A program made the translations under genes and the position numbers. A stretch of 51,427 nt of DNA from Burkholderiales bacterium (GTDB lineage Bacteria > Pseudomonadota > Gammaproteobacteria > Burkholderiales > Burkholderiaceae_C): NCBI GenBank assembly GCA_947453625.1, contig CANGHK010000036.1:1-51427 (forward strand), given 5' to 3'. Under the pieces are notes generated by a model. It saw only the letters and a program-made list of their open reading frames with translations. It was not told where the DNA came from and did not search any database. Shown here piece after piece: positions 272 through 47,217 of the stretch (positions are counted from its first letter, which is position 1; each line of letters begins with the position of its first letter).

Positions 272-316
272 CCCCAGCGCGGGGCTCTAGCCGCGGCGCT
301 GCTTACACTGCCGCGC

Positions 317-1102
317 ATGCTCTTTCTGCTGTCACCCGCCAAGTCCCTGGACTACCAGTCGCCGCTGCCCAGGGGTGTTGCCGCGCGCGCCACCGAGCCG
401 CTGTTCGTGCCGCGCGCGGCCGAGTTGATCGCGCAGTTGGCGCGGCTCACGCCGCCGCAGGTGGCGCAGTTGATGGACTTGTCAGACGAGTTGGCCGCGC
501 TCAACGTCGGCCGCTACGCCGCCTGGTCGGCGCAGGCCAGCGACGAGAACAGCCGGCCGGCGGCGCTGGCCTTCGACGGCGATGTCTACGGCGGGCTGGA
601 CGCCGGCACGCTCAAGCCCGCCCAACTCGACTGGGCCCAAGAGCATCTGGTGATCCTGTCCGGTCTGTACGGCGTGCTGCGCCCGCTCGACCGGCTGCAG
701 CCCTACCGGCTGGAGATGGGCACCCGGCTGGCCAACGCCGCCGGCAAGGACTTGTACGCTTTCTGGGGCGACAGACTGGCCGCCTACCTCGACGACCGTC
801 TCGCCGGCGAGGCCGCTCCGGTGGTGGTCAACCTGGCCTCGCAGGAGTATTTCAAGGCCGTCGATCGCCGCGCCCTGGGCGCGCGGGTAGTCGACTGCGT
901 GTTCGAGGACTGGAAGGGCGACCGTTTCAAGATCATCAGCTTCTTCGCCAAACGCGCCCGTGGCCTGATGGCGCGCTGGGCAGTGCAGCACAAGGCGGCC
1001 ACGGTGGCGGCGCTGCAGCGCTTCGACCTCGAGGGCTATGCTTTCGACGCCGATGCCTCCCGGCCCGACAAACTGGTCTTCCGGCGCCGCGCGGCGGCCT
1101 GA
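317..1102 (+). CDS. yaaA: Peroxide stress protein YaaA (DUF328)
   Basis: A 261-residue protein, the normal length for the YaaA/DUF328 family. It opens with LFLLSPAKSLDY and carries the family segments LYGVLRPLD, YRLEMGTRL and VVNLASQEYFKAV. In E. coli YaaA lowers free intracellular iron during hydrogen peroxide stress, and the fold binds DNA. The start at 317 gives the canonical N-terminus. A TACACT hexamer at 304-309 lies only 7 nt before the ATG and no Shine-Dalgarno sequence is visible, so the mRNA may be leaderless. It stands alone between the esterase and a dioxygenase. Confidence 0.93.
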   Translation: MLFLLSPAKSLDYQSPLPRGVAARATEPLFVPRAAELIAQLARLTPPQVAQLMDLSDELAALNVGRYAAWSAQASDENSRPAALAFDGDVYGGLDAGTLKPAQLDWAQEHLVILSGLYGVLRPLDRLQPYRLEMGTRLANAAGKDLYAFWGDRLAAYLDDRLAGEAAPVVVNLASQEYFKAVDRRALGARVVDCVFEDWKGDRFKIISFFAKRARGLMARWAVQHKAATVAALQRFDLEGYAFDADASRPDKLVFRRRAAA

Positions 1103-1179
1103 GTGCTGCCGTCGCGCGGGCGCTTGGCCGTCGCGTAACCCCCGCTGCGCAGGTTTGAAAGCGCCGGCAGAATATTGCC

Positions 1180-2031
1180 ATGAACTTGCAAGTGGTGACG
1201 CCCGAACTGTCGCAATGGATCGTCGAGCAGGCTCAGGCCGGCTGCCGACCCGAGGACGTGCTGGCCTCGATGCGGTCCAGCGGCTGGGCCGAGGCCGTGG
1301 CCATATCGGCGCTGGAGCGCACGCTGCAGCAGTTTCTGGACAGGCCCGCGGCGGCGGCATCAGCCAACGGGCCGGCGCGCCTGCCCGAGCCTGCGCTGCT
1401 GGGCTCACCCAGTTGCGTCCAGGCCGGCGACCGCCTGGTCACGGTCTTGCTGACGATGCGCCACCCGCGCGTCGTGGTGTTCGCCGGCCTGCTGTCCGAC
1501 GAGGAGTGCGACGCACTGGCCGCCGACGCCGCGCCCCGCCTGTCCCGGTCGGAGACGGTGGTCGTCGAGACCGGTGGCAACGAGGTCAACTCCTCGCGTA
1601 CCAGCCAGGGCATGTTCTTCGGCCTCGGTGAGACGGCGTTGTGCGCGCGCATCGAGGCCCGCATCGCCGCGCTGCTGAACTGGCCGCTGGTCAACGGCGA
1701 GGGCCTGCAGGTGCTGCGCTACCTGTCGGGCGCCGAGTACAAACCGCACCATGACTATTTCGACCCGGCCCAGCCCGGCATGTCGGCGGTGCTGGCGCGC
1801 GGCGGCCAGCGCGTGGCCACGCTGGTGATCTACCTGAACACGCCAGAACTGGGTGGCGGCACCGTGTTTCCGGACGTCGGGCTCGAAGTGGCGCCGGTCA
1901 AGGGCAACGCGGTCTTCTTCAGCTACGACCGCCCGCACGCCAGCACCCGCACGCTGCATGGCGGGGCGCCGGTGCTGGCTGGCGAGAAGTGGGTGGCCAC
2001 CAAATGGCTGCGCGAGCGAGAGTTCATCTGA
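1180..2031 (+). CDS. 2OG-Fe(II) oxygenase, prolyl 4-hydroxylase alpha-subunit-like
   Basis: A 283-residue protein whose C-terminal two thirds form the double-stranded beta-helix of prolyl-4-hydroxylase-type dioxygenases. The iron ligands are visible: H190-x-D192 in KPHHDYFDP and the distal H260 in RTLHGG. K270 in GEKWVATKW is the usual 2-oxoglutarate anchor. The N-terminal 90 residues are a less conserved helical extension. Such bacterial enzymes use O2 and 2-oxoglutarate to hydroxylate prolines or other side chains; the substrate here is unknown. The next gene, 108 bp downstream, encodes a small Ala/Pro/Lys-rich exported protein. A CAGAAT hexamer lies 6 nt before the ATG. Confidence 0.9.
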   Translation: MNLQVVTPELSQWIVEQAQAGCRPEDVLASMRSSGWAEAVAISALERTLQQFLDRPAAAASANGPARLPEPALLGSPSCVQAGDRLVTVLLTMRHPRVVVFAGLLSDEECDALAADAAPRLSRSETVVVETGGNEVNSSRTSQGMFFGLGETALCARIEARIAALLNWPLVNGEGLQVLRYLSGAEYKPHHDYFDPAQPGMSAVLARGGQRVATLVIYLNTPELGGGTVFPDVGLEVAPVKGNAVFFSYDRPHASTRTLHGGAPVLAGEKWVATKWLREREFI

Positions 2032-2139
2032 ACCGGCGCTGGGTATTCCCTGTATCTGCAGGCTGGTGTCAACCACTCTCCGGGCCGCAGCGTTGATAAA
2101 AAACTAATTCCGTTTCTTCAAATTCCAGGACGACCTACC

Positions 2140-2343
2140 ATGAACAGACTCCTCGCTGCCTTGATCGCCGCCACCTTCAGCTTCGGTGCGTTTGCCCAAG
2201 CTGCCACACCGGCCGCGCCGGCGGTTCCCTCTGCCGCCAGCCAGAAGGCCGGTGCCGAGCCGGGCAAGAAGGCCGCCAAGCCGGCGAAGGCGACCAAGGC
2301 AGCCAAGGCCAGCAAGAAGTCGAAGAAGGCCAAGGCCGCCTGA
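2140..2343 (+). CDS. Small exported alanine/lysine-rich protein
   Basis: A 67-residue protein not assigned to a family. Residues 1-21 form a clear Sec signal peptide (Lys/Arg-free hydrophobic core, predicted cleavage after AQA). The mature part is low complexity: Ala-Pro-rich first, then KPAKATKAAKASKKSKKAKAA-type residues like a histone H1 tail, giving a very positive charge. It could bind nucleic acid, LPS or other polyanions in the periplasm, but that is inference. An AT-rich stretch precedes it (2091-2130), and a strong terminator follows at 2368. Reality as a gene is supported by the signal peptide, the own spacing and the terminator. Confidence 0.7.
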   Translation: MNRLLAALIAATFSFGAFAQAATPAAPAVPSAASQKAGAEPGKKAAKPAKATKAAKASKKSKKAKAA

Positions 2344-2367
2344 GATCGGACTCGGGTCCGCGATGAG

Positions 2368-2391
2368 CCCGGTCCCGGACCGGGTTTTTTT
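2368..2391 (+). terminator. Rho-independent terminator
   Basis: CCCGGTCC pairs with GGACCGGG (2368-2384; in practice about 7 bp with a 3-nt loop), followed by seven T residues. It ends transcription of the small exported protein before the convergent ribonuclease gene. Confidence 0.85.
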
Positions 2392-2418
2392 CGCCGTCCG
2401 GCCAGCCCGCGGGCGGCG

Positions 2419-3777
2419 CTACAGCGTCACCTGCTCGCCATGCTGCGGCACCCGCACCGCCCAACCCAGTTCGTCCTGGATGCGCAGGCGCAGCGTGTCG
2501 GCGGCTTCGGGCTCGCCGTGCACGACATAGGTCTGCGCCGGCTTGCGGGGCATCAACCGCAGCCAGGCCAGCAGTTCATCAGCGTCGGCATGGCCTGAAA
2601 AGCCCTCCAGCGCGCTGACGTCCGCGCGCACCGGCACGTACTCGCCGTGGATCTTGACCTGGGTGGCGCCCGCCACCAGGTGCGCGCCCCGGCTGCCGCC
2701 GACCTGGAAGCCGGCGAACACGATGTGATTTTGCGGCCCCGGCGCCAGCGCCTTCAGGTGGTGCAGCACGCGCCCGCCGGTGGCCATGCCGCTGGCCGAG
2801 ATGATCACCGCGGGGTAGCGCGAGGCGGCCAGCCGCTGCGATTGCGTGGCGTCGGCGACGATGCGCACGCCGTCGCACAGCGTGGCGATCTCGCGCTGCG
2901 GTACCCGCAGCAGCCGGCGGTGGCGGATGTAGAGCGCGGTGGCCAGGCTGGCCATCGGGCTGTCGAGAAAAACCGGCAGGGTGTCCGGGATCTCGCCGGC
3001 GCGCTTGAGGCGCTGCAGCAAAAGCAGCAGCGCCTGCGCCCGGCCGACGGCAAACGCCGGCAGAAGCACCTTGCCGCCGCGGTGCACGGTGTCGCGCACG
3101 ATGCGCGCCAGTTCGGCCGGTGCGGTGTCGCCGCTCGGGTGGCTGCGGTTGCCGTAGGTCGACTCCACCAGCAGCACGTCAGCCTGCGGCAGGGGCAGCG
3201 GCGCGGGCATCAGCACATCGTGTTGTCGCCCCACGTCGCCCGAGAACACCAGCGTGCGGCCCTCGTGCGTCAGCGCCACCGAACTGGCCCCCAGCAGATG
3301 GCCCACCGGCGTCAGCGTCACCTCCACGTTGCCGATGGCCAGCCGCCGGCCGGCTGCCAGCGGGACGATCTTGGCGATCGCTCGGCGGGCATCGGCTCGG
3401 TTGTACAGCGGCAGCGCCTTCGCGTGGTGCGAGAAGCCGTAGCGGTTGGCGCGACGGGTGTCCTCCTCCTGCAGGTGGGCACTGTCGAGCAGCAGCACTT
3501 CGGCCAGGTCGCGGGTGGCGGTCGAGGCATGGATGGGCCCGCGAAATCCGGCCTGCACCAGCCTGGGCAGCCAGCCGCTGTGGTCGAGGTGGGCATGGCT
3601 GAGCACGACGGCGTCGATCTCGCGCGGCGCCACTTGCAGCGGCGCCCAGTTGCGCTCGCGCAGCACCTTGTAGCCCTGGAACATGCCGCAATCGAGCAGG
3701 ATGCGCTGGCCGCCCAGCGTGACCAGGTGCCGGGACCCGGTGACGGTGTCGGCGGCGCCGAGGAACTGGATCTGCAT
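2419..3777 (-). CDS. Metallo-beta-lactamase / beta-CASP ribonuclease
   Basis: 452 residues, starting MQIQFLGAADTVTGS. The metal-binding HxHxDH motif is at H61-H63-D65-H66 (SHAHLDHSG), followed by further metal ligands (GHLLGAS, FSGDVG) and the beta-CASP cap (DSPMA, SASGMATGGR) ending in an RMMBL-type segment (SGHADADELL, VHGE). This order is that of single-chain RNA-processing MBL proteins related to CPSF-73 and archaeal aCPSF, common in Proteobacteria. It is probably a cytoplasmic RNA endo- or exonuclease; the physiological substrate is unknown. It is convergent with the preceding gene and has no close operon partner (86 bp to the next minus-strand gene). Confidence 0.92.
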   Translation of the reverse strand: MQIQFLGAADTVTGSRHLVTLGGQRILLDCGMFQGYKVLRERNWAPLQVAPREIDAVVLSHAHLDHSGWLPRLVQAGFRGPIHASTATRDLAEVLLLDSAHLQEEDTRRANRYGFSHHAKALPLYNRADARRAIAKIVPLAAGRRLAIGNVEVTLTPVGHLLGASSVALTHEGRTLVFSGDVGRQHDVLMPAPLPLPQADVLLVESTYGNRSHPSGDTAPAELARIVRDTVHRGGKVLLPAFAVGRAQALLLLLQRLKRAGEIPDTLPVFLDSPMASLATALYIRHRRLLRVPQREIATLCDGVRIVADATQSQRLAASRYPAVIISASGMATGGRVLHHLKALAPGPQNHIVFAGFQVGGSRGAHLVAGATQVKIHGEYVPVRADVSALEGFSGHADADELLAWLRLMPRKPAQTYVVHGEPEAADTLRLRIQDELGWAVRVPQHGEQVTL

Positions 3778-3863
3778 GCTGGGGCTCCGCGGGTTGACCT
3801 GGCCTCAAGTCGACGCCCGCGGGCGCCCGGTCGGCTTGCGCAAGCGCAACGCGGCGGCGCCGC

Positions 3864-4298
3864 TCAGCGCGGATCGTCGCCGTGGGTCTGGTATTCGAAG
3901 AACATCTGCCCGCCAAAGGCCAGCGTGCCCATCAGCGCGGCCCCGCCCACCAGCAGCGCCACCACGGCGCCTATCACCGGCCCCCAGCCGGTGGGGCGCG
4001 GCGGCTGGCCGGGGTTGAAGCGCTCTGCCCATTTCTGGTCTGGCGTCAGGCCGTAGACGATCGCCGTCAGCATGCTGATCGACAGCATCAGGCCGAGCAG
4101 CGGGATCAGCAGCCAGGCGGCATGGTCGTCCTGACCGAGGTTGCGCATGCGCAAGGCCCCGGCTGCGCCCAGCAGCGTGGGCAGCGGGTGCAGCCAGGCC
4201 CAGCCGTCACGCCGGCCATGCAGATAGAAGCGGTGGGCGCCCAGGCTGCCCAGCGTCAGGGCCAGCCAGGTGGCCAGGGTCTTGGATCGGTAGCGCAT
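3864..4298 (-). CDS. TM2-domain-like inner-membrane protein
   Basis: 144 residues. The N-terminal part reads [36 protein letters not shown], which resembles a TM2 domain: hydrophobic helix, a GxxGxHRFYL turn and a second helix. Two more predicted membrane helices follow ([22 protein letters not shown] and [21 protein letters not shown]). Function is unknown; the family is widespread and poorly described. The start codon lies 7 bp after the stop of the upstream acetyltransferase gene, so the two are probably co-transcribed. Confidence 0.8.
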
Positions 4299-4305
4299 CG
4301 GCGGC

Positions 4306-4842
4306 TCAATCCTGCGCGGGCAGGGTCGCGCCGCTGCCCAGCGTGCGCTGCATCAGCACCACGTCGAGCCAGCGGTCGAACTTCCAGCCCGCGGCCTTGA
4401 GCACGCCGCTGTGCTCGAAGCCCAGCGCCGCGTGCACGCCGACCGAGCCCAGGTTCGCCGCGTCGCCTATCACCGCCAGCATCTGCCGCGCGCCGGCGGC
4501 CTCACAGCGGCTGACCAGTTCGGTCAGCAGCAAGCGGCCCACGCCCTGGCCGCGCGCGTCCTGATGCAGGTAGATCGAATCTTCGAGGCAGAAGCGGTAG
4601 GCCAGCCGGGGCCTGAAATGGTTGGCATAGGCATAGCCCAGCACGCGGTCGCCTTGCTGCGCCACCAGCCAGGGCAGGTGCTTGGACAACACGTCGTCGC
4701 GGCGCCTGGCCATCTCGGCCAGGTCGGGCGGTTCGAGTTCGAAAGTGCCGGTGCCCTGCAGCACGGCGTGGGCGTAGACCGCAGTGATGGCCGGCAGGTC
4801 GGCGGCAGTGCTGGGTCGGATCAACAAGGAGGGAGGGGTCAT
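4306..4842 (-). CDS. GNAT-family N-acetyltransferase (phosphinothricin acetyltransferase-like)
   Basis: 178 residues from the ATG at 4842. The frame stays open further upstream, but this start gives the usual [19 protein letters not shown] beginning. The acetyl-CoA loop R97-G-Q-G-V-G102 is intact, followed by [39 protein letters not shown], the signature of the Pat/Bar subgroup of GNATs. Such enzymes acetylate small amines such as amino acids or phosphinothricin; the natural substrate is not known. A GACACT hexamer sits 8 nt before the ATG. The downstream partner is the TM2-like gene. Confidence 0.9.
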
Positions 4843-4893
4843 GTCTGGGTAGTGTCTGTCAATCCGGGCTGGCAAGGGCTGCCCTTGTCAGTT

Positions 4894-5142
4894 TATAATG
4901 TTCGGTTTTCGGCGGCGGTCGGTGGCGACACCGGCGTATCTACGTGGCCGAAATTAGGGATTCCGAATCAAGACTCAGGGATTTGGCATCACGACGCAAG
5001 ACGGTGCTGTGCAAATGGCCAGGCGCTGCGGGCAAGGTGCTGCAGGCGCCTGCTGACCGCAGCAAACCAGATCGACCGGTCTCGAGTGTCTCCGAGGCCG
5101 GCCTGTCACCCACGAATACCCAAGAATCACTGGAACATCACT
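4894..5142 (+). promoter_or_regulatory. rpsP promoter (-10) and long structured leader
   Basis: A perfect TATAAT is at 4894-4899; the -35 region is poor. The rpsP start is at 5143, so the leader would be about 235 nt. It includes a 12-bp palindrome GCAGGCGCCTGC (5042-5053) enclosed by an outer pair GCTGCGG (5025-5031) / CCGCAGC (5057-5063). Apart from this the 300-base gap holds no gene. Autoregulation by S16 is possible but not shown. Confidence 0.6.
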
Positions 5143-5421
5143 ATGGTCGTCATTCGACTCGCACGCGGCGGCGCCAAGAAGCGCCCGTTCTACAACATCG
5201 TGGTCGCCGACTCGCGCGAACGCCGCGACGGTCGCTACCTCGAGCGCATCGGCTTCTACAACCCGATGGCCGCCGGCGCCGAGCAGCCGCTGCGCGTGGC
5301 ACTCGACCGCGTCAGCTACTGGCAAGGCGTGGGTGCACAGATGTCGCCCACCGTCAAGCGCCTGGTCGGCGATGCCGCCAAGGCACAGGTTGTCGCCGCG
5401 GCTGTCGCGGTCGCCGCCTGA
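5143..5421 (+). CDS. rpsP: 30S ribosomal protein S16
   Basis: 92 residues beginning [25 protein letters not shown], the invariant S16 N-terminus, with [14 protein letters not shown] and [18 protein letters not shown]. It ends with an Ala/Val-rich tail typical of betaproteobacterial S16. S16 binds 16S rRNA early in 30S assembly. It heads the conserved rpsP-rimM-trmD-rplS operon; rimM starts 35 bp downstream. The frame is open far upstream, but only the ATG at 5143 fits the family. Confidence 0.98.
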
Positions 5422-5456
5422 GCCTGCTGCATCGGTTTGACGCAGCGCCCGCCGCC

Positions 5457-6059
5457 ATGACGCAGGCGTTGCAATCACCGGGTGACGACCCGGTCTTCCC
5501 GGACGATGCGATCGAGGTCGGTCGGGTGCTCGGGGCCTGGGGCATCAAGGGCGGGATTCGCGTCCAGCCCTTCTCCAAGGATCCCGAGGCGCTGTTTACA
5601 GCGCGCCTCTGGTTCATCCGGCCGCCCGAAAGCCCGTTGGCGGTCAAGTTGGGCACCACCACCTTCCCGCCCTTGCTGCGCATCACGCACAGCAAGTTGC
5701 ATGGCGACAGCGTGGTGGCCACGGCCCAGGAACTGCCCGACCGCAACGCCGCCGAGGCGATGCAGGGCGCCCGCATCTTCGTCGCCCGCGCCAGCTTTCC
5801 CCGGGTGGGCGACGGCGAATATTACTGGATAGACCTGATCGGCCTGGCCGTGGTCAACCGCAAGGGCGAGGACTTGGGCACGGTCATCGACCTGCTCGAC
5901 ACCGGCGCCCACAGCGTGTTGCGCATGCGTCGGCCCGACGCAGCCGAAGGGGCGTCTGTCGAGGCCAGCGAGCGCTTGATCCCGTTCGTGGCCGCCTTCA
6001 TCGACGATGTGAGTCTGGCCGAGCGCCGCATCACGGTCGATTGGGGGCTGGACTATTGA
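5457..6059 (+). CDS. rimM: Ribosome maturation factor RimM
   Basis: 200 residues from the ATG at 5457. The N-terminal RimM domain begins [22 protein letters not shown] (about 19-40), and the C-terminal PRC-barrel contains [37 protein letters not shown] and [11 protein letters not shown]. RimM binds S19 and helps 3' domain assembly of the 30S subunit. The N-terminus has about 18 extra residues ahead of the conserved block, which is common in Burkholderiales. It lies between rpsP and trmD as usual. Confidence 0.97.
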
Positions 6060-6154
6060 TCGCCCCGCAGGATGCCGCCGCGCGGCGTCCTGGCCCCGTG
6101 GTGGGAGAGGGCGATTTGTTGGCAGACGGCCCCGTCCCTGATGCCCGTTGCACC

Positions 6155-6934
6155 ATGCGTTTCGACGTCATCACGCTGTTTCCCGACCTGTTCGGCCCGC
6201 ACCTGACCCTGGGCATCACGCGACGCGCCTACGAGAGCGGCCAGGTCGACGTGCGGCTGTGGCCGCTGCGCGACTTTGCCGAGGACAACTACCGCCGCGT
6301 CGACGACCGTCCCTATGGCGGCGGGCCGGGCATGGTGATGCTGGCCGAGCCCTTGCAGCGCGCCCTGGGCGCGGTGCTGGCCAGCCGTGCCGAGGCTGGC
6401 GACGCCCAAGCGGTGACGGTGGTGCATTTCAGCCCCACCGGCGCGCCCATCACCCAGGCCCTGGTGCGGCAGTTGGCCGAGGGACCGGGCGCGGTGCTGC
6501 TGTGCGGCCGCTACGAGGGCATAGACCAGCGCCTCATCGACCGCCATGTCACGCTCGAGCTCAGCCTGGGCGATTTCGTGTTGTCGGGCGGCGAACTGCC
6601 GGCGCTGGCGCTGCTCGACGCCGTAGCGCGGCTGCAGCCGGGGGTGTTGACGGTCGAGTCGCACCAGCAGGACAGCTTTTCGGCTGACGGCTTGCTCGAT
6701 TGCCCGCATTACAGCCGGCCCGAGGTGTTGGCCGCGCCCGACGGGCCGCAGGCGGTGCCGGCGGTGCTGCTCAGCGGCCACCACGGCCAGATTCAACGCT
6801 GGCGGCGCGACCAGTCGCTGCTGATCACGGCCCGCCGCCGGCCCGAGCTGATCGCCGCGGCGCGTGCTGCCGGGCGGCTGTCCGCAGCTGACGAGAAGAC
6901 GCTGCTGCAGGCCCCGGTCCAGACAGGGTTATAA
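6155..6934 (+). CDS. trmD: tRNA (guanine-N1-)-methyltransferase TrmD
   Basis: 259 residues from ATG 6155 ([13 protein letters not shown]). An upstream ATG in frame at 6041 would overlap rimM and add non-conserved residues, so it was not used. SPOUT knot motifs are complete: [29 protein letters not shown] and [25 protein letters not shown], then the C-terminal PHYSRPEV block. The enzyme makes m1G37 in tRNAs using SAM, preventing +1 frameshifts. A TATAAT overlaps its stop codon and may start rplS transcription. Confidence 0.97.
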
Positions 6935-6935
6935 T
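6930..6935 (+). promoter_or_regulatory. Candidate -10 element of an internal rplS promoter
   Basis: A perfect TATAAT spans the trmD stop codon (TAA at 6932-6934), 69 nt ahead of the rplS start. No good -35 is seen, so it is a candidate only. It would let L19 be made independently of trmD. Confidence 0.45.
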
Positions 6936-7004
6936 CATAGGCTTTTCGATCCTCTACCGGGCCAAATCTTTGAGCGCCGGCATGATCGCACCAGGAGAAC
7001 CGCA

Positions 7005-7358
7005 GTGGATCTGATCCGCACACTAGAGCAGGAAGAGATTGCTCGCCTGAACAAGACGATTCCCGTGTTCGCCCCCGGCGACACCGTGATCGTCAGCGTC
7101 AACGTCGTTGAAGGCACCCGCAAGCGCTTGCAAGCGTATGAGGGCGTTGTGATTGCCAAGCGCAACCGCAGCCTGAACAGCAGTTTCATCGTCCGCAAGA
7201 TTTCCAGCGGTGAAGGCGTCGAGCGCACGTTCCAGCTCTACAGCCCGTTGATTGCGTCGATCGAAGTCAAGCGCCGCGGCGATGTGCGCCGCGCCAAGCT
7301 GTACTACCTGCGCGAACGCTCAGGCAAGTCCGCGCGAATTAAAGAAAAACTTGGCTGA
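7005..7358 (+). CDS. rplS: 50S ribosomal protein L19
   Basis: 117 residues from a GTG start at 7005, preceded by AGGAG (6993-6997) at 8 nt spacing. The protein reads [22 protein letters not shown] and has the L19 core [52 protein letters not shown] and [23 protein letters not shown]19 sits at the 30S-50S interface. The open frame starts earlier at 6864, inside trmD, but the ribosome site and family alignment fix the GTG. The stop codon lies inside a strong hairpin (7353-7371). Confidence 0.98.
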
Positions 7359-7413
7359 CCTGCGGTCAGCCGCGCACGAATTGCGCGGGCGCGCCTAGCG
7401 CGCACCAAGTTTT
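7346..7413 (+). repeat. Cloverleaf-like inverted-repeat element at the rplS 3' end
   Basis: An outer pair AAAACTTGG (7346-7354) / CCAAGTTTT (7405-7413) encloses three hairpins: GGCTGACC-tgc-GGTCAGCC (7353-7371), CGCGCA-cgaat-TGCGCG (7371-7387) and GCGCGC-cta-GCGCGC (7389-7403). The first contains the rplS TGA. No T-tract longer than four follows, so it is not a classical terminator; mRNA 3'-end protection or a REP-like role is possible. Confidence 0.6.
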
Positions 7414-7422
7414 CGGGGCGAC

Positions 7423-7573
7423 GCGGCGCAGCCGCATGTCCCAGAAACTCGGCTGAGCTTCGCTCAGCCTGGCGCCGCAGGCGCCTCAGCGCGCGCAGCG
7501 CGATGGGGAGTGAACGCGGCGCTGCGACGCCAGTCGCAGTGACGCAAAAGCTGGGCTGCTGGGCTGCTGGGCT
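7423..7573. repeat. Row of small-loop hairpins and an 8-bp tandem repeat
   Basis: The 311-base gap between rplS and the NUDIX gene contains GCGGC-gca-GCCGC (7423-7435), GGCTGAGC-ttc-GCTCAGCC (7451-7469), GGCGCC-gca-GGCGCC (7471-7485), CGCGC-gca-GCGCG (7490-7502) and CTGCGAC-gcca-GTCGCAG (7522-7539), then three copies of GCTGGGCT (7550-7573). A further hairpin AAGCCGCC / GGCGGCTT is at 7621-7640. No coding gene is supported in this gap. Confidence 0.6.
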
Positions 7574-7669
7574 GTGGTTTCAGCCTCAAAAGCTCGGCTC
7601 GAACGCCTCCAGCCCTCCCCAAGCCGCCCCCGGGCGGCTTGTTCCATTCCAGGTTCCGGAATCCCCAGG

Positions 7670-8377: not shown

Positions 8378-8405
8378 GCCGGGGCGCTGGGTATGATCAA
8401 GGCCG

Positions 8406-9392: not shown

Positions 9393-9398
9393 GCCCGG

Positions 9399-9471
9399 AC
9401 CGAGTGAGCACCTGCGTGCTCGCGAGTGCCTGGCGAACGATCTGCCCGCCTGCAAGCGGGCAAGCTCCTGG
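9399..9471. repeat. 73-bp direct repeat, copy 1
   Basis: Identical to 9478-9550 (period 79 bp). Each copy holds two hairpins: GAGCAC-ctgc-GTGCTC and TGCCCGC-ctgcaa-GCGGGCA. It lies between the stop codons of the CobD-family gene and rsgA. Confidence 0.9.
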
Positions 9472-9477
9472 CGCCGC

Positions 9478-9550
9478 ACCGAGTGAGCACCTGCGTGCTC
9501 GCGAGTGCCTGGCGAACGATCTGCCCGCCTGCAAGCGGGCAAGCTCCTGG
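9478..9550. repeat. 73-bp direct repeat, copy 2
   Basis: Perfect second copy of 9399-9471, separated by six bases. A diverged inverted relative is found at 37258-37291. Confidence 0.9.
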
Positions 9551-9580
9551 GACCCGCCCGCCACGGCAGCGCGCCGCCAC

Positions 9581-11805: not shown

Positions 11806-11883
11806 AGCCTGCGAGTGTAGGGGCGCCTGCCGCGCCCGCGGTCGGCTGTGCTTGGGCGCGGTGGGGGCTGCGACAATCTTGCG

Positions 11884-14384: not shown

Positions 14385-14395
14385 TTCAGCCGAAC

Positions 14396-18075: not shown

Positions 18076-19062
18076 TCAGGCCAGCGGCAGGCCCACATGC
18101 CGCTCGAGCAGGGCCTGGCGGGTGACCGGGCTGTCCAGCTGGTCCAGCCACCACTGCAGCGCCAGGCCTTGCGGCGCCTTGCGCGGCTGTGGGGTGGCCG
18201 CGCGCCGCCAGGCGTAGCCGAACAACGCCGGCCGCAGGCTGCGCTGCACCGCCTTGGCCACCAGCCGGCCGGCGCGCAGCTGCTCGCGCACCTGCGGCTC
18301 GGGCACGAAGCCGCAGCCCAGGCAGCGCAGCAAGGCCTCGATCTTGCCGGCCATCGTCGAGACGGTCAGCACATCCTGTCCCGGCAGCAGGTTGACCGTG
18401 ACCGGCGACAGCCGCTGCGCCGAATCGGCCACCGCGACCGCCCGGTGCGCCATGATCTGGTCGTCGCTCAACGGCTCGGCGGCCAGCGCCAGCGGGTGGT
18501 GCGGCGCGACGACGAAGACGAATGCCACCTCGCCCAGCGGGCGCAACTCGATGCCCGGCTGCGGCGGCGTGCTCATCATCGCGCCTATGGCCAGGTCGGC
18601 CTGGCCGCTGACCAGGGCCTCCCACAGCCCGGCCATCACCTCGCCGCGCAGCCGCAGTCTCGTGCCCGGGGCCTGGCCGTCGGCGCCGCGCTGGGCAAAG
18701 AAACCCTCGATCAACTCGAACATCGTCAGCCGCGACATCACGTCGTCGAAAGCCACCGTCAGCTCGCTTTCCCAGCCGGTGGCCACGCGGCGCACCCGGT
18801 TCGCCACCGCGTCCATCTCGGCCAGCAGGCGCCGGCCCTCGGTCAGCAACTCCTGGCCTGCGGCGGTCAGCCTGGCCTGGCGCGAACTGCGGTCGAACAG
18901 CAGCACGTCGAGCGCGTCCTCGAGCTGGCGCACGCTGTAGGTCAGCGCCGACGGCACCCGGCCCAGCTCGCGCGCGGCGGCAGCAAAACTGCCGGTGCGG
19001 GCGATGATGTCCATCATCTGCAGCGCGTCGGGGGTCAGGGCGTTGCGGCGGGGTGAGCTCAT
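18076..19062 (-). CDS. LysR-family transcriptional regulator
   Basis: 328 residues. The N-terminal winged helix-turn-helix is [43 protein letters not shown] (about 16-58), followed by a periplasmic-binding-like effector domain. The gene is divergent from a pirin gene, with overlapping 17-bp dyads in the 94-bp gap; LysR regulators usually control their divergent neighbour and themselves. The effector is unknown. A LysR-pirin pair is common in Proteobacteria, so pirin is the probable target. Confidence 0.95.
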
Positions 19063-19858: not shown

Positions 19859-19937
19859 CCTGGGCGGTCTGGCCTGGCGGCCTGCGGAGGCGACCCCGGC
19901 GCCGCGGCCGGCCCGGCCAGCCGCTAAAGTGCCGGCC

Positions 19938-22411: not shown

Positions 22412-22417
22412 GCGGCG

Positions 22418-22445
22418 GATTGTAGAAAACCCGCTCCCTACAATC
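22418..22445. promoter_or_regulatory. 28-bp inverted repeat carrying both divergent -10 hexamers
   Basis: GATTGTAG (22418-22425) and CTACAATC (22438-22445) are perfect reverse complements with a 12-base spacer. Each arm contains a TACAAT facing outward, 7 nt from the trhO GTG (22411) and the dnaE ATG (22452). It could be a double promoter and operator. Confidence 0.6.
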
Positions 22446-22451
22446 TGCCGC

Positions 22452-26105: not shown

Positions 26106-26172
26106 GCCAGCCGCGGTGGTGGCGGCGGGCCCGACTTCGGCGTGATCCGCTGGCCAACGTAGAGTCGGGGCC

Positions 26173-37257: not shown

Positions 37258-37291
37258 CAGATCCTTCGCCCGCCACTCCCGAGCGCGCAGG
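37258..37291. repeat. Diverged inverted copy of the 9399/9478 repeat
   Basis: On the plus strand this stretch matches the reverse complement of the 73-bp repeat at 29 of 34 positions; the weaker similarity extends left to about 37238 without gaps. It lies between the convergent vapC and pyrD genes. Confidence 0.65.
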
Positions 37292-37298
37292 CGCCGGC

Positions 37299-38339: not shown

Positions 38340-38388
38340 AATTCATTGTCTCCCACCGCTGCCCTCGCCCTTGCCGCAGGCCCTCACC

Positions 38389-39054: not shown

Positions 39055-39083
39055 CGCGGCCTGGGCTGACGCCGCGCCGTGGC

Positions 39084-41051: not shown

Positions 41052-42061
41052 GCCGCGCCCGGGCTGGCCGGCGGCGCCGGCTGGTCCGCGCCGGCCTGGC
41101 GCGCCAGCCAGCGCAGCAGCGGCGCCTGCGCCGACGCCAGGCTGCGGTAGACCAGCACCGCGGGGCTCATCGAGGCCAGGGCGTCGTGCAGCCGGGCCGC
41201 CTGGCCGGGCCCGGCCAGCGCCAGGGTCAGCGGCGTCACCTCGACCAGGATGGTGAACACCGCCTGCGCCTTGCCCTTGGCGTCGCGCGGCAGCGGGATG
41301 AAAGTCTGGCGCTCGGTGCGCCACCAGGTCTGGGCCGCCAGCGCGTCGTCGCCCAGCCCGGTTGGCCAGCCTGCGGGGTCGACCCGCCGCGGATGGGCGT
41401 GCAGGCGCGGGTGCGCGCTCAGCGTCCAGACGAAGCGCTCCCAGCGCTCGGACCGGTCGGCGTCGCCAGTGACCAGCCGGACCAGCTGCGGCGCGGCGCC
41501 GACGATCAGCCGGTTGTCGGCCACTGGCGCGTGCACCTCGCTGAAGTGGCGGCCTATCTTGTCCTCCGGCGCCCACATCGACGGCAGCGCCACCGCCAGC
41601 CAGGGCAGGGTGCCGGTGGCGCCGTCGAGCAGCGCAAAGTCCTCGGCAAAGGCCAGCGACAGCAGCGCGGCACGCCGCCACGGCGCCGGCAGCGCGCTCA
41701 GCAGGCTGCCGATCTCGGGCCAGCCGGTGCCGATGTCGCGCGGCTGTTCGTCGGCGTCCAGCGCCCAGCCCAGCCAGGGTGCGGCCCAGGTCGCGCCGTC
41801 GACCACCCAGGCCCGCGGGTGTTCGGCTGCGGCATGGGCGGCCAGCGCGTCCAGTGCCGGGCCGGCGTCGAAGCTGGGCGCGCACAGCAGCGCCTGGCCG
41901 GGGAAGGCGCCCAGCACGGCCAGTTTCTCGCGCAGGTGGCGGGCCAGGCCGCGATTCGGGGCCACTGTCGGCGTCAGGTGGGCGGCGCCCGGCGCCAGGC
42001 GGCGCAGCCCGGGCTGCATGCGGTGCGGAACGTGGACTGCGGCTTCGAAGTCGAAACTCAT
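41048..42061 (-). CDS. DUF3445 (heme-dependent oxidative N-demethylase-like) protein
   Basis: 337 residues from ATG 42061. The sequence matches the DUF3445 pattern: LAPDW-type N-terminal region, ALLSLAFAEDFALLDGATGTLPWLAVALPSMWAPEDKIGRHFSEVHAPVADN, HPRRV, WWRTERQTFIPLPRDAKGKAQAVFTILVEVTPL and a helical end. Members of this family bind heme and demethylate amines, but the link to this protein is by family only. It ends with a TTGA overlap into mnmC, an arrangement that forces co-expression. Confidence 0.82.
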   Translation of the reverse strand: MSFDFEAAVHVPHRMQPGLRRLAPGAAHLTPTVAPNRGLARHLREKLAVLGAFPGQALLCAPSFDAGPALDALAAHAAAEHPRAWVVDGATWAAPWLGWALDADEQPRDIGTGWPEIGSLLSALPAPWRRAALLSLAFAEDFALLDGATGTLPWLAVALPSMWAPEDKIGRHFSEVHAPVADNRLIVGAAPQLVRLVTGDADRSERWERFVWTLSAHPRLHAHPRRVDPAGWPTGLGDDALAAQTWWRTERQTFIPLPRDAKGKAQAVFTILVEVTPLTLALAGPGQAARLHDALASMSPAVLVYRSLASAQAPLLRWLARQAGADQPAPPASPGAA

Positions 42062-42089
42062 GGCTGCGAAGGTATCACCGCCGCCCAGC

Positions 42090-42112
42090 AAAAAGGGCAC
42101 CGAAGTGCCCCT
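42090..42112 (-). terminator. efp terminator with UUCG tetraloop
   Basis: Read on the minus strand: GGGCAC-TTCG-GTGCCC followed by five T. The TTCG loop is the classic extra-stable tetraloop. It lies 25 nt past the efp stop and before the DUF3445 gene. Confidence 0.85.
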
Positions 42113-42136
42113 TGCGCAAAGCGATACGGTGATCGC

Positions 42137-42691
42137 TCAGACCCGCTTGCGGTACTCGTGGGTGCGGGTGTCGATCTCGATCTTGTCGCCCTGGGCGACG
42201 AAGATAGGCACCGGGATGTCGAAGCCGGTGGAGATCTTGGCCGGCTTGAGCACCTTGCCCGAGGTGTCGCCCTTGACGGCCGGCTCGGTCCAGGTCACTT
42301 CGCGCACCAGCGAGGTGGGCAGCTCGACCGAGATCGCCTTGCCGTCGTAGAACACCACTTCGACCGGCATCGCGTCTTCGAGGTAGTTGATCGCGTCGCC
42401 CATGTTCTCGGCCTCGACCTCGAACTGGTTGTAGTCCGCGTCCATGAAGACGTACATCGGGTCGGCGAAGTAGGTGTAGGTGCAATCCTTCTTGTCGAGG
42501 ATGACCTGGTCCATCTTGTCGTCGGCCTTGTACACCAGCTCGGTGGCCTGGTTGTTGAGCAGGCTCTTCAACTTCATGCGCACCGTGGCGGCGTTGCGGC
42601 CGCCGCGGGAGTACTCGGTCCTGAGCACGACCCAGGGGTTCTTGTCCTGCATGATCACGTTGCCGGCGCGGATTTCTTGAGCGGTTTTCAT
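42137..42691 (-). CDS. efp: Elongation factor P
   Basis: 184 residues, normal length, starting [23 protein letters not shown]. The tip of domain I reads [15 protein letters not shown], with Arg at position 32; EF-P of this type is rhamnosylated on R32 by EarP, which is encoded just upstream. Domains II and III ([32 protein letters not shown] and [45 protein letters not shown]) are intact. EF-P relieves ribosome stalling at polyproline. A UUCG terminator follows. Confidence 0.98.
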
Positions 42692-42732
42692 GGGTTTCCC
42701 GAAGATGGGCTTCTGACGACTGTCTGGGCACT

Positions 42733-42750
42733 CCGCGGCGTTCGCCGCGG
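42733..42750. repeat. Perfect inverted repeat in the efp 5' region
   Basis: CCGCGGCG and CGCCGCGG with a 2-nt loop, within the 173-bp gap between earP and efp. If transcribed from the TAAAAT at 42851 it would fold as a strong hairpin in the efp leader. No Ts follow. Confidence 0.5.
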
Positions 42751-42850
42751 CGGCCGCGCCGCTCGCGTCGCGCGCTGTCCGTCGACAGCCTGCTGGCGAA
42801 TGGCGCGCCGATGTCGGTTTCGGCGAAGCGGTGGTGGAGCAAAGCCGGCT

Positions 42851-42856
42851 ATTTTA
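42851..42856 (-). promoter_or_regulatory. Candidate -10 element for efp
   Basis: TAAAAT on the minus strand, 8 bp past the earP stop and 159 nt before the efp ATG. The -35 is not evident. It would allow efp expression independent of earP. Confidence 0.45.
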
Positions 42857-42864
42857 GACCCTTC

Positions 42865-43935
42865 TCACGCCAGGCTGGCCGTCACGAAGCGTTGCAGCCG
42901 GCTGCACAAGTCTTCCTGGGCCAGCAGCCTGGCCCGCCAGCCGGCGTGCAACTGTTGCCAGGAGCCGCGCTCGGGCAGGGCGAAAGTCCCCGGTTTGCGT
43001 CCCGCCGGCACGCCGTTGAAGGCGCGGAAGGCATCGCCCACCGCCTGGGCCAGCGGCGCCGGGCTGCCGGCCAGGTAGCGGTCCAGAAAGGCGTCCAGCT
43101 TGGCCGCGTGGGCGCCGTCGTGCTGAGGGTAGATCTGCCACAGCAAGGGGCTGGCCGCGGCCAGCTGCGCCCGCACGAACGAATCCTCGCCGCGCACCAG
43201 ATTGAGGTCGGTGCTGGCCAGCAGGCGGTCGAAGTCGGGCTGGGCCAGCCAGGGCAGGGCGACGGTGCGCAGGCCCGCCGGCAGGGCCAGGGCCAGCACC
43301 TGGGCGCGCGCTGCGCCGGGCGGCAGCAGCAGCAGCGTGGGCTGCCCCGCCAGCGCCCGCAGCAGGTCGGGCAAGGCGGGGTTGGTGTAGCAGAAGACCA
43401 GCACTGCCTGTTCGCCGCCGCCGCCGGCCCAACCTCGTTCCTGCGCCCAGGCCCGCGCCTGTGTCTGGGCTTGCGGGCTGGCGTCGACCTCGTGCAGCAG
43501 GCCGCCGGTGGTCGCGGTGAAGCCGGGGTAGAAGAACCACTTCGTCAAGCCCGCCCCGGGGCCGCTGAACTGCGGCGACGGCAGGCCGTGCGAACGTTCG
43601 ACATAGGCCTCGGCGCTGAGGTACTCGAGGTTGATCCAGACCGGCCGGCGCGCCGCGGCCGCCATCCGCGCGACGAAGTCGTCAGGCGGATCGCAGCCGA
43701 AGGTCTCGACCACCACGTCGCCGGGGATGCGGGCGGTGGGCGCATCGGGCCAGAGGATCACCTCGACCCCCGGTGCGCCCTGCGGCGCCATCCAGTCCAG
43801 CGCTTGCGGTGCGTCTATCCAGAGCCGCACGGTCTGGCCGCGCCGCGCCAGCGCGGCCGCCAGCCGCCAGCTGACGCCGACATCGCCGAAGTTGTCTATC
43901 ACCCGGCAGAACAGATCCCATTGCAGCGCGGCCAT
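42865..43935 (-). CDS. earP: EF-P arginine rhamnosyltransferase EarP
   Basis: 356 residues from ATG 43935. The N-terminus ALQWDLFCRVIDNFGDVGVSWRLAAALARRG is the EarP signature (Asn-Phe-Gly-Asp), with ILWPD, VVETFGCDPPD, WINLEYLSAEAYVERSHGLPSPQ, KWFFYPGFTATTGGLL and the donor site NLVRGEDSFVRAQLAAASPLLWQIYPQHDGAH. It is a GT-B inverting transferase that uses dTDP-L-rhamnose to modify EF-P Arg32. An AATAAT hexamer is 7 nt before the ATG. It lies upstream of efp, same strand, divergent from uvrC. Confidence 0.95.
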   Translation of the reverse strand: MAALQWDLFCRVIDNFGDVGVSWRLAAALARRGQTVRLWIDAPQALDWMAPQGAPGVEVILWPDAPTARIPGDVVVETFGCDPPDDFVARMAAAARRPVWINLEYLSAEAYVERSHGLPSPQFSGPGAGLTKWFFYPGFTATTGGLLHEVDASPQAQTQARAWAQERGWAGGGGEQAVLVFCYTNPALPDLLRALAGQPTLLLLPPGAARAQVLALALPAGLRTVALPWLAQPDFDRLLASTDLNLVRGEDSFVRAQLAAASPLLWQIYPQHDGAHAAKLDAFLDRYLAGSPAPLAQAVGDAFRAFNGVPAGRKPGTFALPERGSWQQLHAGWRARLLAQEDLCSRLQRFVTASLA

Positions 43936-43983
43936 GGCCTGGATTATTGAGGCGGCAGAATCGGGCCCACCGCGATCGCCACC

Positions 43984-46065
43984 ATGCCTGCCACTTCCGA
44001 CCTGCCCCTGCCTGCCGACGAAGCCATCGCCGCCGCCGCCGTGACGGCGCCGCCCGACGCGCCCGACACGCTGAACCGCGCGCGCCTGCTGGCCGAGGTG
44101 GCGTCGCTGCCGGCGCTGCCGGGTGTCTACCGCTATTTCGACGCCCATGGCGGCGTGCTCTATGTCGGCAAGGCGCGCAGCCTGAAGAAGCGGGTCGCCA
44201 GCTACTTCCAGAAAGACCATGCCGGCACCCGCATCGGCCAGATGATCAGCCGCATCGCCCGCATGGAGACCACGGTGGTGCGCACCGAGGCCGAGGCGCT
44301 GCTGCTGGAAAACAACCTGATCAAGACGCTGGCGCCGAAGTTCAACATCCTGTTCCGCGACGACAAGAGCTACCCCTACCTCAAGCTGCAGCGCCACGCC
44401 TTCCCGCGCATCGCCTACTACCGCGGCGCGGTCGACCGCAAGCACAGCTACTTCGGGCCCTATCCGGGCGCCTGGGCGGTCAAGGAGACCATCCTGCTGC
44501 TGCAGAAGGCCTTCCGGCTGCGCACCTGCGAGGACACGGTCTACGCCAACCGCTCGCGGCCCTGCCTGCTGTACCAGATCCGGCGTTGTTCGGCACCCTG
44601 CGTCGGGCTGATCGGGCCGGCCGACTACCAGCGCGACGTGTCGAACGCCGAGCGCTTCCTGCTTGGTGACGCCGGCGAGGTGATCGAGACCTTGCAGCAG
44701 CAGATGATGGCCTACGCCGACGCGCTGGAATTCGAGCGCGCCGCCGAGGTGCGCAACCAGATCAGTGCGCTCTCCACCGTGCTGCACCAGCAGAGCATGG
44801 ACGAGAGCAGCCTGTCGTCGGCACGCGACCGCGACGTCGACATGCTGGCGGTGCGCGTGCTGGGCGGGCGCGCCTGCGTCAACCTGGCGATGGTGCGCGG
44901 CGGCCGGCACCTGGGCGACCGGGCCTACTTTCCGACCCATGTCGAGGACGCCACCGCGCTGTCGATAGCGCAGGCCGATGAGCGCAGCGAGGCCGACTCG
45001 GTCGAGCGCCAGGTGCTGGAGGCCTTCATCGCTCAACATTACCTGGGCGTGGCGCCGCCGCCGGTGCTGGTGCTGAGCCACGCGGTCGCGCCCGAGTTGC
45101 TGGCTGCGCTGGGCGAGCAGCTGGGGGTCAAGATCAACGCCCAGCACCAGCCGCGCGAGCAGCGCAAGCTGTGGCTGGAGATGGCCGAGAAGGGCGCGCA
45201 GATCGCGCTGGCCCGGCTGCTGTCCGAGGAGGGCTCGCAGCGCGAGCGCACCCGCGCGCTGGTCGAGGCGCTGGACCTGGACGTGGACGACCTCGACGCG
45301 CTGCGCATCGAGTGCTTCGACATCAGCCACACCGCCGGCGAGGCCACCCAGGCCAGCTGCGTGGTCTACGAGAACCACGCGATGCGGTCGGCCGAGTACC
45401 GGCGCTACAACATCGAGGGCATCACCGGTGGCGACGACTATGCCGCGATGCGCCAGGTGCTGACCCGGCGCTACGCCAAGGTGGCCGAGGCGCGGGCCGC
45501 GGCGCTGGCGGGCGAGCCCGCGGGTGAGTCGGTGGCAGGCAGTGGACCGGCTCCCGAGCGAGGTGATCCGGCGTCTGCCGTGACGTCTGCCAAGGCCGCG
45601 CCGCCCAAGGTCTTGCGCCTGCCCGGGCTGGTGCTGGTCGACGGCGGCCGCGGCCAGGTGGCGATGGCGCGCGAGGTGTTCACGGCGCTGGGCCTGGACC
45701 TGGCGCTGATCGTCGGTGTCGAGAAAGGCGAGGGCCGCAAGGTCGGGCTGGAGGAACTCGTGTTCGCCGATGGCCGCGAGAAGGTCTATCTCGGCCACGA
45801 CTCGGCCGCGCTGATGCTGGTGGCGCAGATCCGCGACGAGGCGCACCGCTTCGCCATCACCGGCATGCGGGCCAAGCGTGCCAGCGTGCGCACCGGCGGC
45901 AGCAAGATCGAGGAGATCGCCGGCATCGGCCCGAAGAAACGCGCCAAGCTGCTGCAGCGCTTCGGCGGGCTGCGCGGCGTGGCGGCGGCCAGCGTGGACG
46001 AGTTGTGCAGCGTGGAAGGCATTTCGCATGAGCTGGCCGAGGAGATCTACCGTGTCTTGCGTTGA
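43984..46065 (+). CDS. uvrC: Excinuclease ABC subunit C
   Basis: 693 residues, somewhat long. GIY-YIG nuclease domain at about 42-120 (G47[17 protein letters not shown]), the Cys-rich [26 protein letters not shown], a UVR motif ([15 protein letters not shown]), the RNase H-like 5' nuclease ([38 protein letters not shown]) and C-terminal tandem HhH ([26 protein letters not shown]). It makes both incisions in nucleotide excision repair. About 40 Ala/Gly/Pro-rich linker residues (around 505-540) add length. The N-terminal 30 residues are also extra. Confidence 0.97.
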
Positions 46066-46603
46066 TTTGTCGCGGGCCAGACGCCCGCCGGCCCGCGCCG
46101 CGCTGGCCGTACCGCTGTGGCTGGCCTTGCTGGGCGCGGGTTGCAGCAACGCCCCGGCCCCGGCCCATCCTGGCGCGAGCAGCGTCAGGGCGCCGGCGGC
46201 GGACGGGTCGGGCGCCACCGGGCTGCCGGCGCTGGCCGGCAAACCCAGGCCGGCCGCCGCGCCGCCGACGGGCCGCGCCCGCCACTGGGACGACTACCGG
46301 CTGCAGGCGGCCGAGCGCATCGTTGCGCTGAACCCGGCGCTGACCTACGACGGCCCGGTGCCCGAGCCGCTGCTGGCCATCCCGGTGCTGGAGATCGAAC
46401 TCAACGCCGACGGCGGCGTGCGCGCCATCCAGGTGATGCGCAAGCCCGGCCAGGCGGTCGACACGGTGCAGATCGCCATCGACGCGGTGCGCCGCGCCGC
46501 GCCGTTCGGCCAGGTCAGCCACCTGCCCCGGCCGTGGAAGTTCACCGAGGTGTTTCTGTTCAACGACGACCGGCTTTTCAAGCCGCGCTCGCTCGACCTC
46601 TGA
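46052..46603 (+). CDS. Lipoprotein with TonB C-terminal-like region
   Basis: 183 residues from GTG 46052, preceded by GGAG (46041-46044) inside uvrC and overlapping uvrC by 14 bp. Lipobox LLGAGCSN gives a lipidated Cys, so it should sit in the periplasmic face of a membrane. A Pro/Ala-rich linker is followed by [49 protein letters not shown], similar to a TonB/TolA C-terminal domain. Function unknown. Gene order uvrC - this gene - pgsA suggests one transcript. Confidence 0.82.
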
Positions 46604-46650
46604 TCGCTGGCGTGGCCGGGTCGGTCTACGCGTCCTGCACAATGCCTTCC

Positions 46651-47217
46651 ATGTTCCTGACGCTGCCGACACTGCTGACCTGGGCCCGCATCGCCGCGAT
46701 CCCCTTGATCGTCGGCGTGTTCTACCTGCCGCTCGACAGCGCCACCCGCAACCTGCTGGCCACCGCGATGTTCGTGGTGTTCGCGGCCACCGACTGGCTA
46801 GACGGCTGGCTCGCCCGCAAGCTCAACCAGACCTCGGCCTTCGGTGCCTTTCTCGACCCGGTGGCCGACAAGATCCTGGTCTGCGCCGCGCTGCTGGTGC
46901 TGGTCAAGCTCGACCGGGTGGACGTGCTGATCGCGTTGGTGATCATCGGCCGCGAGATCGCGATCTCGTCGCTGCGCGAGTGGATGGCGCAGATCGGCGC
47001 GTCGCGCAGCGTCGCGGTGCACATGCTGGGCAAGCTCAAGACCGCCACCCAGATGACGGCGATCCCCTTCCTGCTCTACGACGGGGCCTTGTTCAGCGTC
47101 ATCGACACGCGGATCTGGGGCAAGGTGCTGATCGTCGTGGCGGCCGTGCTGACGATCTGGTCGATGGTGTATTACCTGCGGCGCGCCCTGCCTGAAATCC
47201 GGGCCAAGGGGCGGTGA
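46651..47217 (+). CDS. pgsA: CDP-diacylglycerol-glycerol-3-phosphate 3-phosphatidyltransferase
   Basis: 188 residues from ATG 46651. CDP-alcohol phosphatidyltransferase motif D-G-x2-A-R-x8-G-x3-D-x3-D is in DWLDGWLARKLNQTSAFGAFLDPVADK. Multiple membrane helices. It makes phosphatidylglycerophosphate at the inner membrane. Start choice: an ATG at 46642 is also in frame, but CACAAT (46638-46643) lies 7 nt before 46651, matching the spacing pattern seen at other genes. Its stop overlaps the next gene (GTGA, 47214-47217). Confidence 0.96.
   Translation: MFLTLPTLLTWARIAAIPLIVGVFYLPLDSATRNLLATAMFVVFAATDWLDGWLARKLNQTSAFGAFLDPVADKILVCAALLVLVKLDRVDVLIALVIIGREIAISSLREWMAQIGASRSVAVHMLGKLKTATQMTAIPFLLYDGALFSVIDTRIWGKVLIVVAAVLTIWSMVYYLRRALPEIRAKGR

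Follow-up and report, generated by a model that had tools for sequence, protein, structure and literature searches.

Start-codon-proximal -10-like boxes in a Burkholderiales genome suggest conserved leaderless transcripts on -10-only promoters

The window analysed here is a stretch of 51,427 nt (contig CANGHK010000036.1 of assembly GCA_947453625.1) from the 5.18 Mb draft genome of an environmental Burkholderiales bacterium; GC content, averaged over the window, is about 71%. Its orn gene has its nearest relatives in the Methylibium / Piscinibacter / Rubrivivax group of Burkholderiales. Thirteen of its genes carry a -10-like hexamer, hereafter the box, 5 to 8 nt before the start codon (Table 1). 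An earlier note, made from the sequence alone, had listed these hexamers and proposed that the genes are transcribed as leaderless mRNAs, and upon re-reading of the sequence all 13 hexamers, gaps and start codons proved exact. Among the encoded proteins, YaaA, TrhO, the CobD/CbiB family protein, PyrD and EarP passed NCBIfam cut-offs, while matches in Pfam were obtained for the 2OG-Fe(II) oxygenase, GNAT, M48 peptidase, DUF599, patatin and DNA polymerase III alpha (dnaE) proteins, as well as for the products of pgsA (CDP-alcohol phosphatidyltransferase) and orn (exonuclease). The GNAT protein (4309-4842, minus strand) shows a below-cut-off likeness to arsinothricin/phosphinothricin N-acetyltransferases (ArsN1 family B). 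At a contig end of the same assembly (contig 62, 2-166) the initial 55 codons of yaaA recur with 100% identity, which is probably an assembly duplicate.

Table 1. Positions of the boxes in the window, their distance to the start codon, and their retention in orthologous upstream regions of same-genus stretches.
Feature	Gene	Position	Strand	Distance and start codon	Retention
Box TACACT	yaaA	304..309	+	7 nt before ATG (317)	4/7
Box CAGAAT	2OG-Fe(II) oxygenase	1168..1173	+	6 nt before ATG (1180)	5/7
Box GACACT	GNAT	4851..4856	-	8 nt before ATG (4842)	0/4 reach threshold at gaps 5-8
Box TATGAT	CobD/CbiB family	8392..8397	+	8 nt before ATG (8406)	4/4 (TATGAT/TATCAT)
Box TACACT	M48 peptidase	11814..11819	-	8 nt before ATG (11805)	3/4
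Box GACAAT	orn	11872..11877	+	6 nt before ATG (11884)	4/4
Box TAAAGT	DUF599	19925..19930	+	7 nt before ATG (19938)	5/6
Intergenic region, 40 bp, two back-to-back TACAAT boxes with 14 bp between	trhO/dnaE	22412..22451	.		
Box TACAAT	trhO	22419..22424	-	7 nt before GTG (22411)	5/6
Box TACAAT	dnaE	22439..22444	+	7 nt before ATG (22452)	7/7
Box TAGAGT	patatin-like phospholipase	26160..26165	+	7 nt before ATG (26173)	3/4
Box GACAAT	pyrD	38345..38350	-	5 nt before ATG (38339)	0/1 at gaps 5-8
Box AATAAT	earP	43943..43948	-	7 nt before ATG (43935)	no ortholog in fetched stretches
Box CACAAT	pgsA	46638..46643	+	7 nt before ATG (46651)	no ortholog in fetched stretches

The frequency of such boxes was determined in a genome sample of 1.25 Mb, consisting of the window and 60 further stretches of 20 kb. 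Gene calls and start choice relied solely on coding potential and the identity of the start codon, without regard to the upstream sequence. Of 1005 genes with upstream sequence, 710 were classified as heads (divergently oriented, or separated from the preceding gene by 30 bp or more) and 276 as operon-internal, and 19 with no neighbour in the stretch were dropped; expected counts for gaps of 5 to 8 nt were derived from gaps of 20 to 60 nt. At gaps 5-8, NANAAT or NANACT precedes 53 of the 710 heads, against 10.0 expected (Poisson P 1.6e-21), and TANNNT precedes 27 (10.0 expected). The enrichment is strand-specific and local: six -10 cores (nACAAT, nAGAAT, nAAAAT, nATAAT, nACACT and nAGACT) have 51 sense and 2 antisense occurrences at these gaps, with a density of 18 per 1000 positions compared to 0.67 genome-wide on both strands. 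Likewise, of 26 matches to (T/G)A(C/G)AAT-6/8-ATG in the sample 15 fall on a called start, compared to none of the 10 matches to (T/G)A(C/G)AAT-15/17-ATG. In stretches of Escherichia coli no excess was seen among 92 annotated starts, a small set (2 vs 5.0 expected).

A mixture model given no motif in advance, run on the 710 heads with a second-order background, recovered AGGAGA, the Shine-Dalgarno sequence (29% of heads), nA(C/G)AAT(C/G) (14%), and, at the start, a composition motif rich in C. When the background was modelled on single bases, the Shine-Dalgarno and composition motifs were returned and no -10; it was the second-order background that revealed the latter. The nA(C/G)AAT class comprises 79 heads at posterior above 0.5, in which gaps of 7 (27 genes), 6 (18) and 8 nt (11) dominate, and 69 of them have gaps of 4 to 9 nt. 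In these 69 genes, 61 of which start with ATG and 8 with GTG, the second, fourth and sixth hexamer positions are nearly fixed (A 96%, A 90% and T 99%), while the first is T in 29%, G in 32% and C in 30%; T is nevertheless more frequent at this position than among such cores in the genome as a whole (13/51 vs 160/1668). The strict class includes 9 of the 13 genes of Table 1. The DUF599 and patatin genes have posteriors below 0.5, and the CobD/CbiB-family gene, 28 bp behind the preceding gene and counted as operon-internal, was outside the scoring.

Regarding other signals, the observation of the earlier note that its genes mostly lack a Shine-Dalgarno sequence and a -35 box extends to the genome sample. 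A Shine-Dalgarno-like 4-mer is present in 6 of the 69 class genes, compared to 210 of the 641 other heads. The mean match to TTGACA at spacers of 15-19 bp is 2.59 of 6, within the range of five other windows (2.59-2.67), and only 2 of the 69 reach a match of at least 5. An extended -10 was considered and rejected, since TG at positions -3/-2 of the hexamer occurs in 5 of 69 genes, close to what the background gives on average (4.38 per position); at -5/-4 it is somewhat raised, with 10 occurrences against 4.4. By their sequence, the predicted promoters of the class are -10-only.

From these counts, the share of the class among the head genes of the genome is estimated at between about 6%, by excess over background, and 14%, by the model. 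The window is richer in class genes than the other stretches (9/38 heads vs 60/672, Fisher P 0.007), so the description of such starts as frequent in the earlier note was locally inflated: they are well above chance, and it is their share that was overstated. Twenty of the 60 class genes outside the window were run against NCBIfam. Nine scored above the cut-off (mnmA, argS, radA, hpnC, ysxC, hemA, mutL, tgt and recG), and seven below it (a DedA protein, an OYE-type reductase, an acyl-CoA dehydrogenase, YqiA, an RNase II-like protein, a beta-ketoacyl synthase and an oxidoreductase/hydrolase-like protein); four had no match at 1e-15. Judging from these matches, the annotated class genes look like mostly housekeeping, replication/repair and tRNA genes.

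The boxes of the window are conserved in related bacteria. Stretches from eight genomes of the same genus were compared, and there 40 of 54 orthologous upstream regions of the 13 genes keep a box at gaps 5-8, compared to 3 of 70 for other heads of the window (P 4e-17, counts not phylogenetically independent), with a far-window chance of 4% at that threshold. Position-wise identity did not separate the box from its flanks, probably owing to variation of the gap by a base or two. Such variation is seen upstream of the GNAT gene in one relative (G008) and of pyrD in the sole relative compared, where GACACT and GACAAT, respectively, stand at a gap of 9.

The most widely kept box is that of dnaE. 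It was surveyed in 40 genomes, of which 38 could be read, one having no match and one a weak paralog-like match. A box at 5-8 nt is present in all 20 same-genus genomes (own included) and in 10 of 18 from other genera of the order; its chance rate is about 1% in the source genome and higher in AT-rich genomes. The 8 bases preceding the dnaE box (22431-22438 in the window; same-genus loci L174-L193) read C.GCT.CC, several of them kept at 75-90%, and none of the columns 9 to 30 bases before the box exceeds 60% in the genus.

These results bear on the possibility that the boxes reflect selective reading, in which loose NANNNT matches lie near many starts in a genome of 71% GC and the good ones were kept. 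The earlier note had suggested a genome-wide count of NANNNT hexamers, and in the genome sample the pattern is enriched at gaps 5-8 only weakly (130 heads vs 82.3 expected, 1.6-fold); bare NANNNT is thus too loose to carry the claim, and the signal lies in nA(C/G)A(A/C)T. This looseness, along with the richness of the window in class genes, is what selective reading would predict. However, the tighter nA(C/G)AAT was found de novo with starts called blind to the upstream sequence, it is nearly confined to the sense strand, and the boxes are kept in most orthologs. As a full account selective reading is refuted and hardly credible, and it applies solely to how loose the originally stated pattern was.

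Another explanation accepts the boxes as real -10 elements and supposes that the start codons are misplaced, with the true starts lying downstream, so that the mRNAs would have short leaders. Start choice is error-prone in GC-rich genomes, and some of the computed calls are wrong: for the dioxygenase the gene finder picked a site 12 nt downstream of that in Table 1, and for dnaE its first run placed the start 63 nt upstream, a larger training set giving the ATG listed. Yet the start codons of dnaE and yaaA occupy the same alignment place across the readable same-genus genomes, and the class starts are predominantly ATG. Misplaced start codons are considered quite improbable as the explanation.

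The evolution of box and start codon was followed in 80 named loci around orn, with groups assigned from record titles. Upstream of the M48 peptidase gene, a box at gaps 5-8 is found in nearly all Sphaerotilaceae-like (21/22) and most Comamonadaceae (13/15) loci, in no locus of Oxalobacteraceae (0/24) or Burkholderiaceae sensu stricto (0/9), and in a single one of those that are unplaced or belong to Methylophilales (1/9). For orn the corresponding numbers are 4/22, 15/15 (one further Comamonadaceae locus having no readable start), 0/24, 0/9 and 2/9. In Comamonadaceae the distance from the orn box to the start codon is 6-7 nt in all 15 loci; in most Sphaerotilaceae-like loci (15/22) it is 20-35 nt, measured to the closest box. 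The orn box thus stays while the start codon moves, which points to a transcription (promoter) element rather than a ribosome site. Counted over all heads in these loci, boxes are in excess in the Sphaerotilaceae-like group (22/280 vs 4.7 expected) and in Comamonadaceae (9/163 vs 1.7); the excess is not clear in Oxalobacteraceae (11/223 vs 8.2), and none was found among 102 heads of Burkholderiaceae sensu stricto, a small set with 1.5 expected.

The orn loci also help to assess a third alternative, namely that the hexamer acts in translation and is no promoter element, forming an unstructured, AT-rich ribosome site of non-Shine-Dalgarno type in mRNAs with ordinary 5' leaders. The hexamer does sit at the position of a ribosome site and replaces the Shine-Dalgarno sequence there, and a few operon-internal genes have it. 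On the other hand, operon-internal genes need ribosome sites and no promoter, yet hardly carry the box in this genome; most Sphaerotilaceae-like orn loci retain a comparable box far from the start codon; and the hexamer fits the textbook sigma70 -10 consensus and not the anti-Shine-Dalgarno sequence. The 16S rRNA gene was not found in the draft genome, so that the anti-Shine-Dalgarno sequence is not readable from the assembly itself. A translation signal is considered improbable.

The best explanation of the data is, very probably, that the class genes have -10-only promoters of sigma70 type producing leaderless mRNAs. The optimal distance from the -10 element to the transcription start in sigma70 promoters is reported as 7 bp (PMC12825309), which at the gaps found would make transcription begin at or beside the start codon. 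According to the proposed mechanism, the hexamers would serve as -10 elements, transcription would begin at the start codon or no more than one or two bases from it, and the resulting mRNAs would be translated without a Shine-Dalgarno sequence, their 5' AUG (or GUG) being recognised by ribosomes carrying initiator tRNA. The use of the box by polymerase, the position of the RNA start and the mode of translation are what we infer from the sequence. The proposal of leaderless mRNAs in the earlier note agrees with nearly all of the discriminating sequence tests and is partly supported, by the near confinement of the boxes to heads, their strandedness, the replacement of the Shine-Dalgarno sequence, the lack of a -35 signal and the conserved, nearly fixed distance; the base at -1 gave no signal, and the RNA end is deduced rather than observed.

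Several observations weigh against this interpretation. If transcription began on the A of ATG, a pyrimidine should be favoured at -1, and no enrichment was found there (42/69 class genes vs 124/191 genes with a Shine-Dalgarno sequence), although the test is a weak one because C is common at -1 anyway. A residue of operon-internal genes carries the box, 5 of 276 in the genome sample (1.3 expected) and 3 of 37 in the Comamonadaceae loci (0.1 expected). Among same-genus relatives the box is absent at 5-8 nt from the GNAT gene in all four and from pyrD in the only one, and it is lost from yaaA in three of seven; the relatedness of the genomes compared also weakens the conservation counts.

The distribution of the trait was surveyed by counting TACAAT-6/8-ATG, the near form, against the frame-matched control TACAAT-15/17-ATG. 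The source genome contains 22 copies of the near form and 3 of the control. In 59 other genomes of the same GTDB family, drawn evenly, the totals are 1012 and 282; the near form is ahead in all 59, in 46 of them individually at P <0.05. For the taxonomic class, 113 other genomes were binned by the chance background from an independent control. The near form is in clear excess in the 20 genomes with the lowest background (218 vs 134). The excess is small in the two intermediate bins of 22 and 29 genomes (412 vs 390 and 1048 vs 956, respectively), and absent from the 42 with the highest background (3220 vs 3207). By its TACAAT ratio the source genome ranks 2nd of 114 in the class. The remark in the earlier note that such starts are unusual for Proteobacteria is only partly right, leaderless genes being already documented in beta-Proteobacteria, including two Burkholderiales.

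Based on these motif counts, the leaderless trait looks family-wide. A broader proposal, which we favour with some reserve, is that the whole family keeps a conserved set of leaderless genes on -10-only promoters. This set would include dnaE in many genera of the order, orn, with its start codons sliding onto and away from a kept box, and closely spaced divergent pairs (trhO/dnaE, M48/orn, mutL/dedA), both genes of which would be expressed from an intervening few dozen base pairs that lack -35 and Shine-Dalgarno sequences.

One compact divergent pair of the window is separated by the trhO/dnaE intergenic region, where each of the two boxes stands 7 nt from its own start codon, GTG on the minus strand for trhO and ATG on the plus strand for dnaE. 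A -35 element at the usual place for either gene would overlap the box of the other or its neighbourhood. The region does not have the layout of a symmetric bidirectional promoter, because the boxes do not overlap and the predicted transcription starts are 41 bp apart, compared to about 18, 10 and 23 bp in that type. In the sampled genome, 5 of the 6 divergent pairs lying 40-60 bp apart have at least one gene of the leaderless class. An excess of doubly leaderless pairs was looked for and rejected, as 3 of 117 divergent pairs is about the expectation under independence with 33 of 234 divergent heads in the class. In two Comamonas loci (L051 and L081) both boxes fit into the mere 29 bp that separate the divergent M48 and orn starts.

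Two similar arrangements were seen elsewhere. In locus L018 (9309-11954), divergent mutL and DedA-family genes are 57 bp apart, and GATAAT stands 6 or 8 nt before each start. In a genome of another genus of the family (G181, contig 15, 329346-329410), opposite-strand TACAAT-ATG sites face away from each other with 35 bp between, an arrangement resembling trhO/dnaE. A different upstream element was found at a LysR-family gene of the window (18076-19062, minus strand), where TTCAAATAAGATGAA is kept in the own and all six related sequences. It is preceded by TTGAA-N7 in the own sequence and in the four relatives displayed that far, and probably represents an operator next to a -10.

Discussion of leaderless mRNAs has centred on Actinobacteria, Deinococcus-Thermus and archaea. 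If the present interpretation is true, a Gram-negative family with such starts conserved over many genera would offer a tractable beta-proteobacterial model, and could help explain misplaced gene starts in the family. The orn and M48 genes, in which box and start codon can be traced across related genera, would allow a direct test of the gain and loss of leaders, and a leaderless-type start of dnaE, an essential replication gene, in many genera of the order would tie replication capacity to a leaderless initiation route.

The leaderless kind of gene is itself already known in beta-Proteobacteria and has experimental backing in the same order. What is new here, as far as sequence comparison can establish it, is the family-wide conservation, the leaderless-type dnaE, the movement of start codons relative to a kept box (orn), and the two back-to-back trhO/dnaE boxes within 40 bp. 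A search of the literature found no paper on leaderless starts in connection with dnaE, Comamonadaceae, or Rubrivivax, Variovorax and Acidovorax, which is no proof of absence, as most of the subscription literature lay outside it.

Leaderless genes were reported in 9 of 71 beta-Proteobacteria, at 2.8-10.6% of genes (Zheng et al. 2011, PMC3160421). The TA-led genes of that study have a TANNNT-like box about 12 bp before the start in place of a Shine-Dalgarno sequence, and their share fits the source genome. They differ in that the first T is barely kept here, unlike A2, A4 and T6. By a different measure, the near form is ahead in every family genome surveyed here, compared to the nine genomes of that study. 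In Burkholderia cenocepacia (PMC4603805), 72 primary transcription start sites coincide with the start codon and a further 42 lie no more than 10 nt away, tRNAs making up 24 of these transcripts, and a TA-rich motif stands directly upstream; in Cupriavidus metallidurans (PMC7563307), 4.67% of primary start sites are within 5 nt of the start codon. Both belong to the same order as the source genome and have leaderless mRNAs mapped by their start sites. The genes stressed there are transcription regulators, in C. metallidurans also replication and repair, whereas the class members annotated here look mostly like housekeeping, replication/repair and tRNA genes. In Deinococcus-Thermus (PMC12340547), a -10 motif adjacent to the open reading frame at a specific spacing, with leaderless output, has been demonstrated experimentally; that system is from another phylum and has TANNNT where nA(C/G)AAT is found here. 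Finally, the bidirectional promoters of E. coli (PMC12825309) are similar to trhO/dnaE in that divergent promoters are close enough for mutual hindrance of polymerases, but their start sites are mostly 18 bp apart, also 10 and 23, whereas trhO and dnaE have separate boxes and more widely spaced predicted starts.

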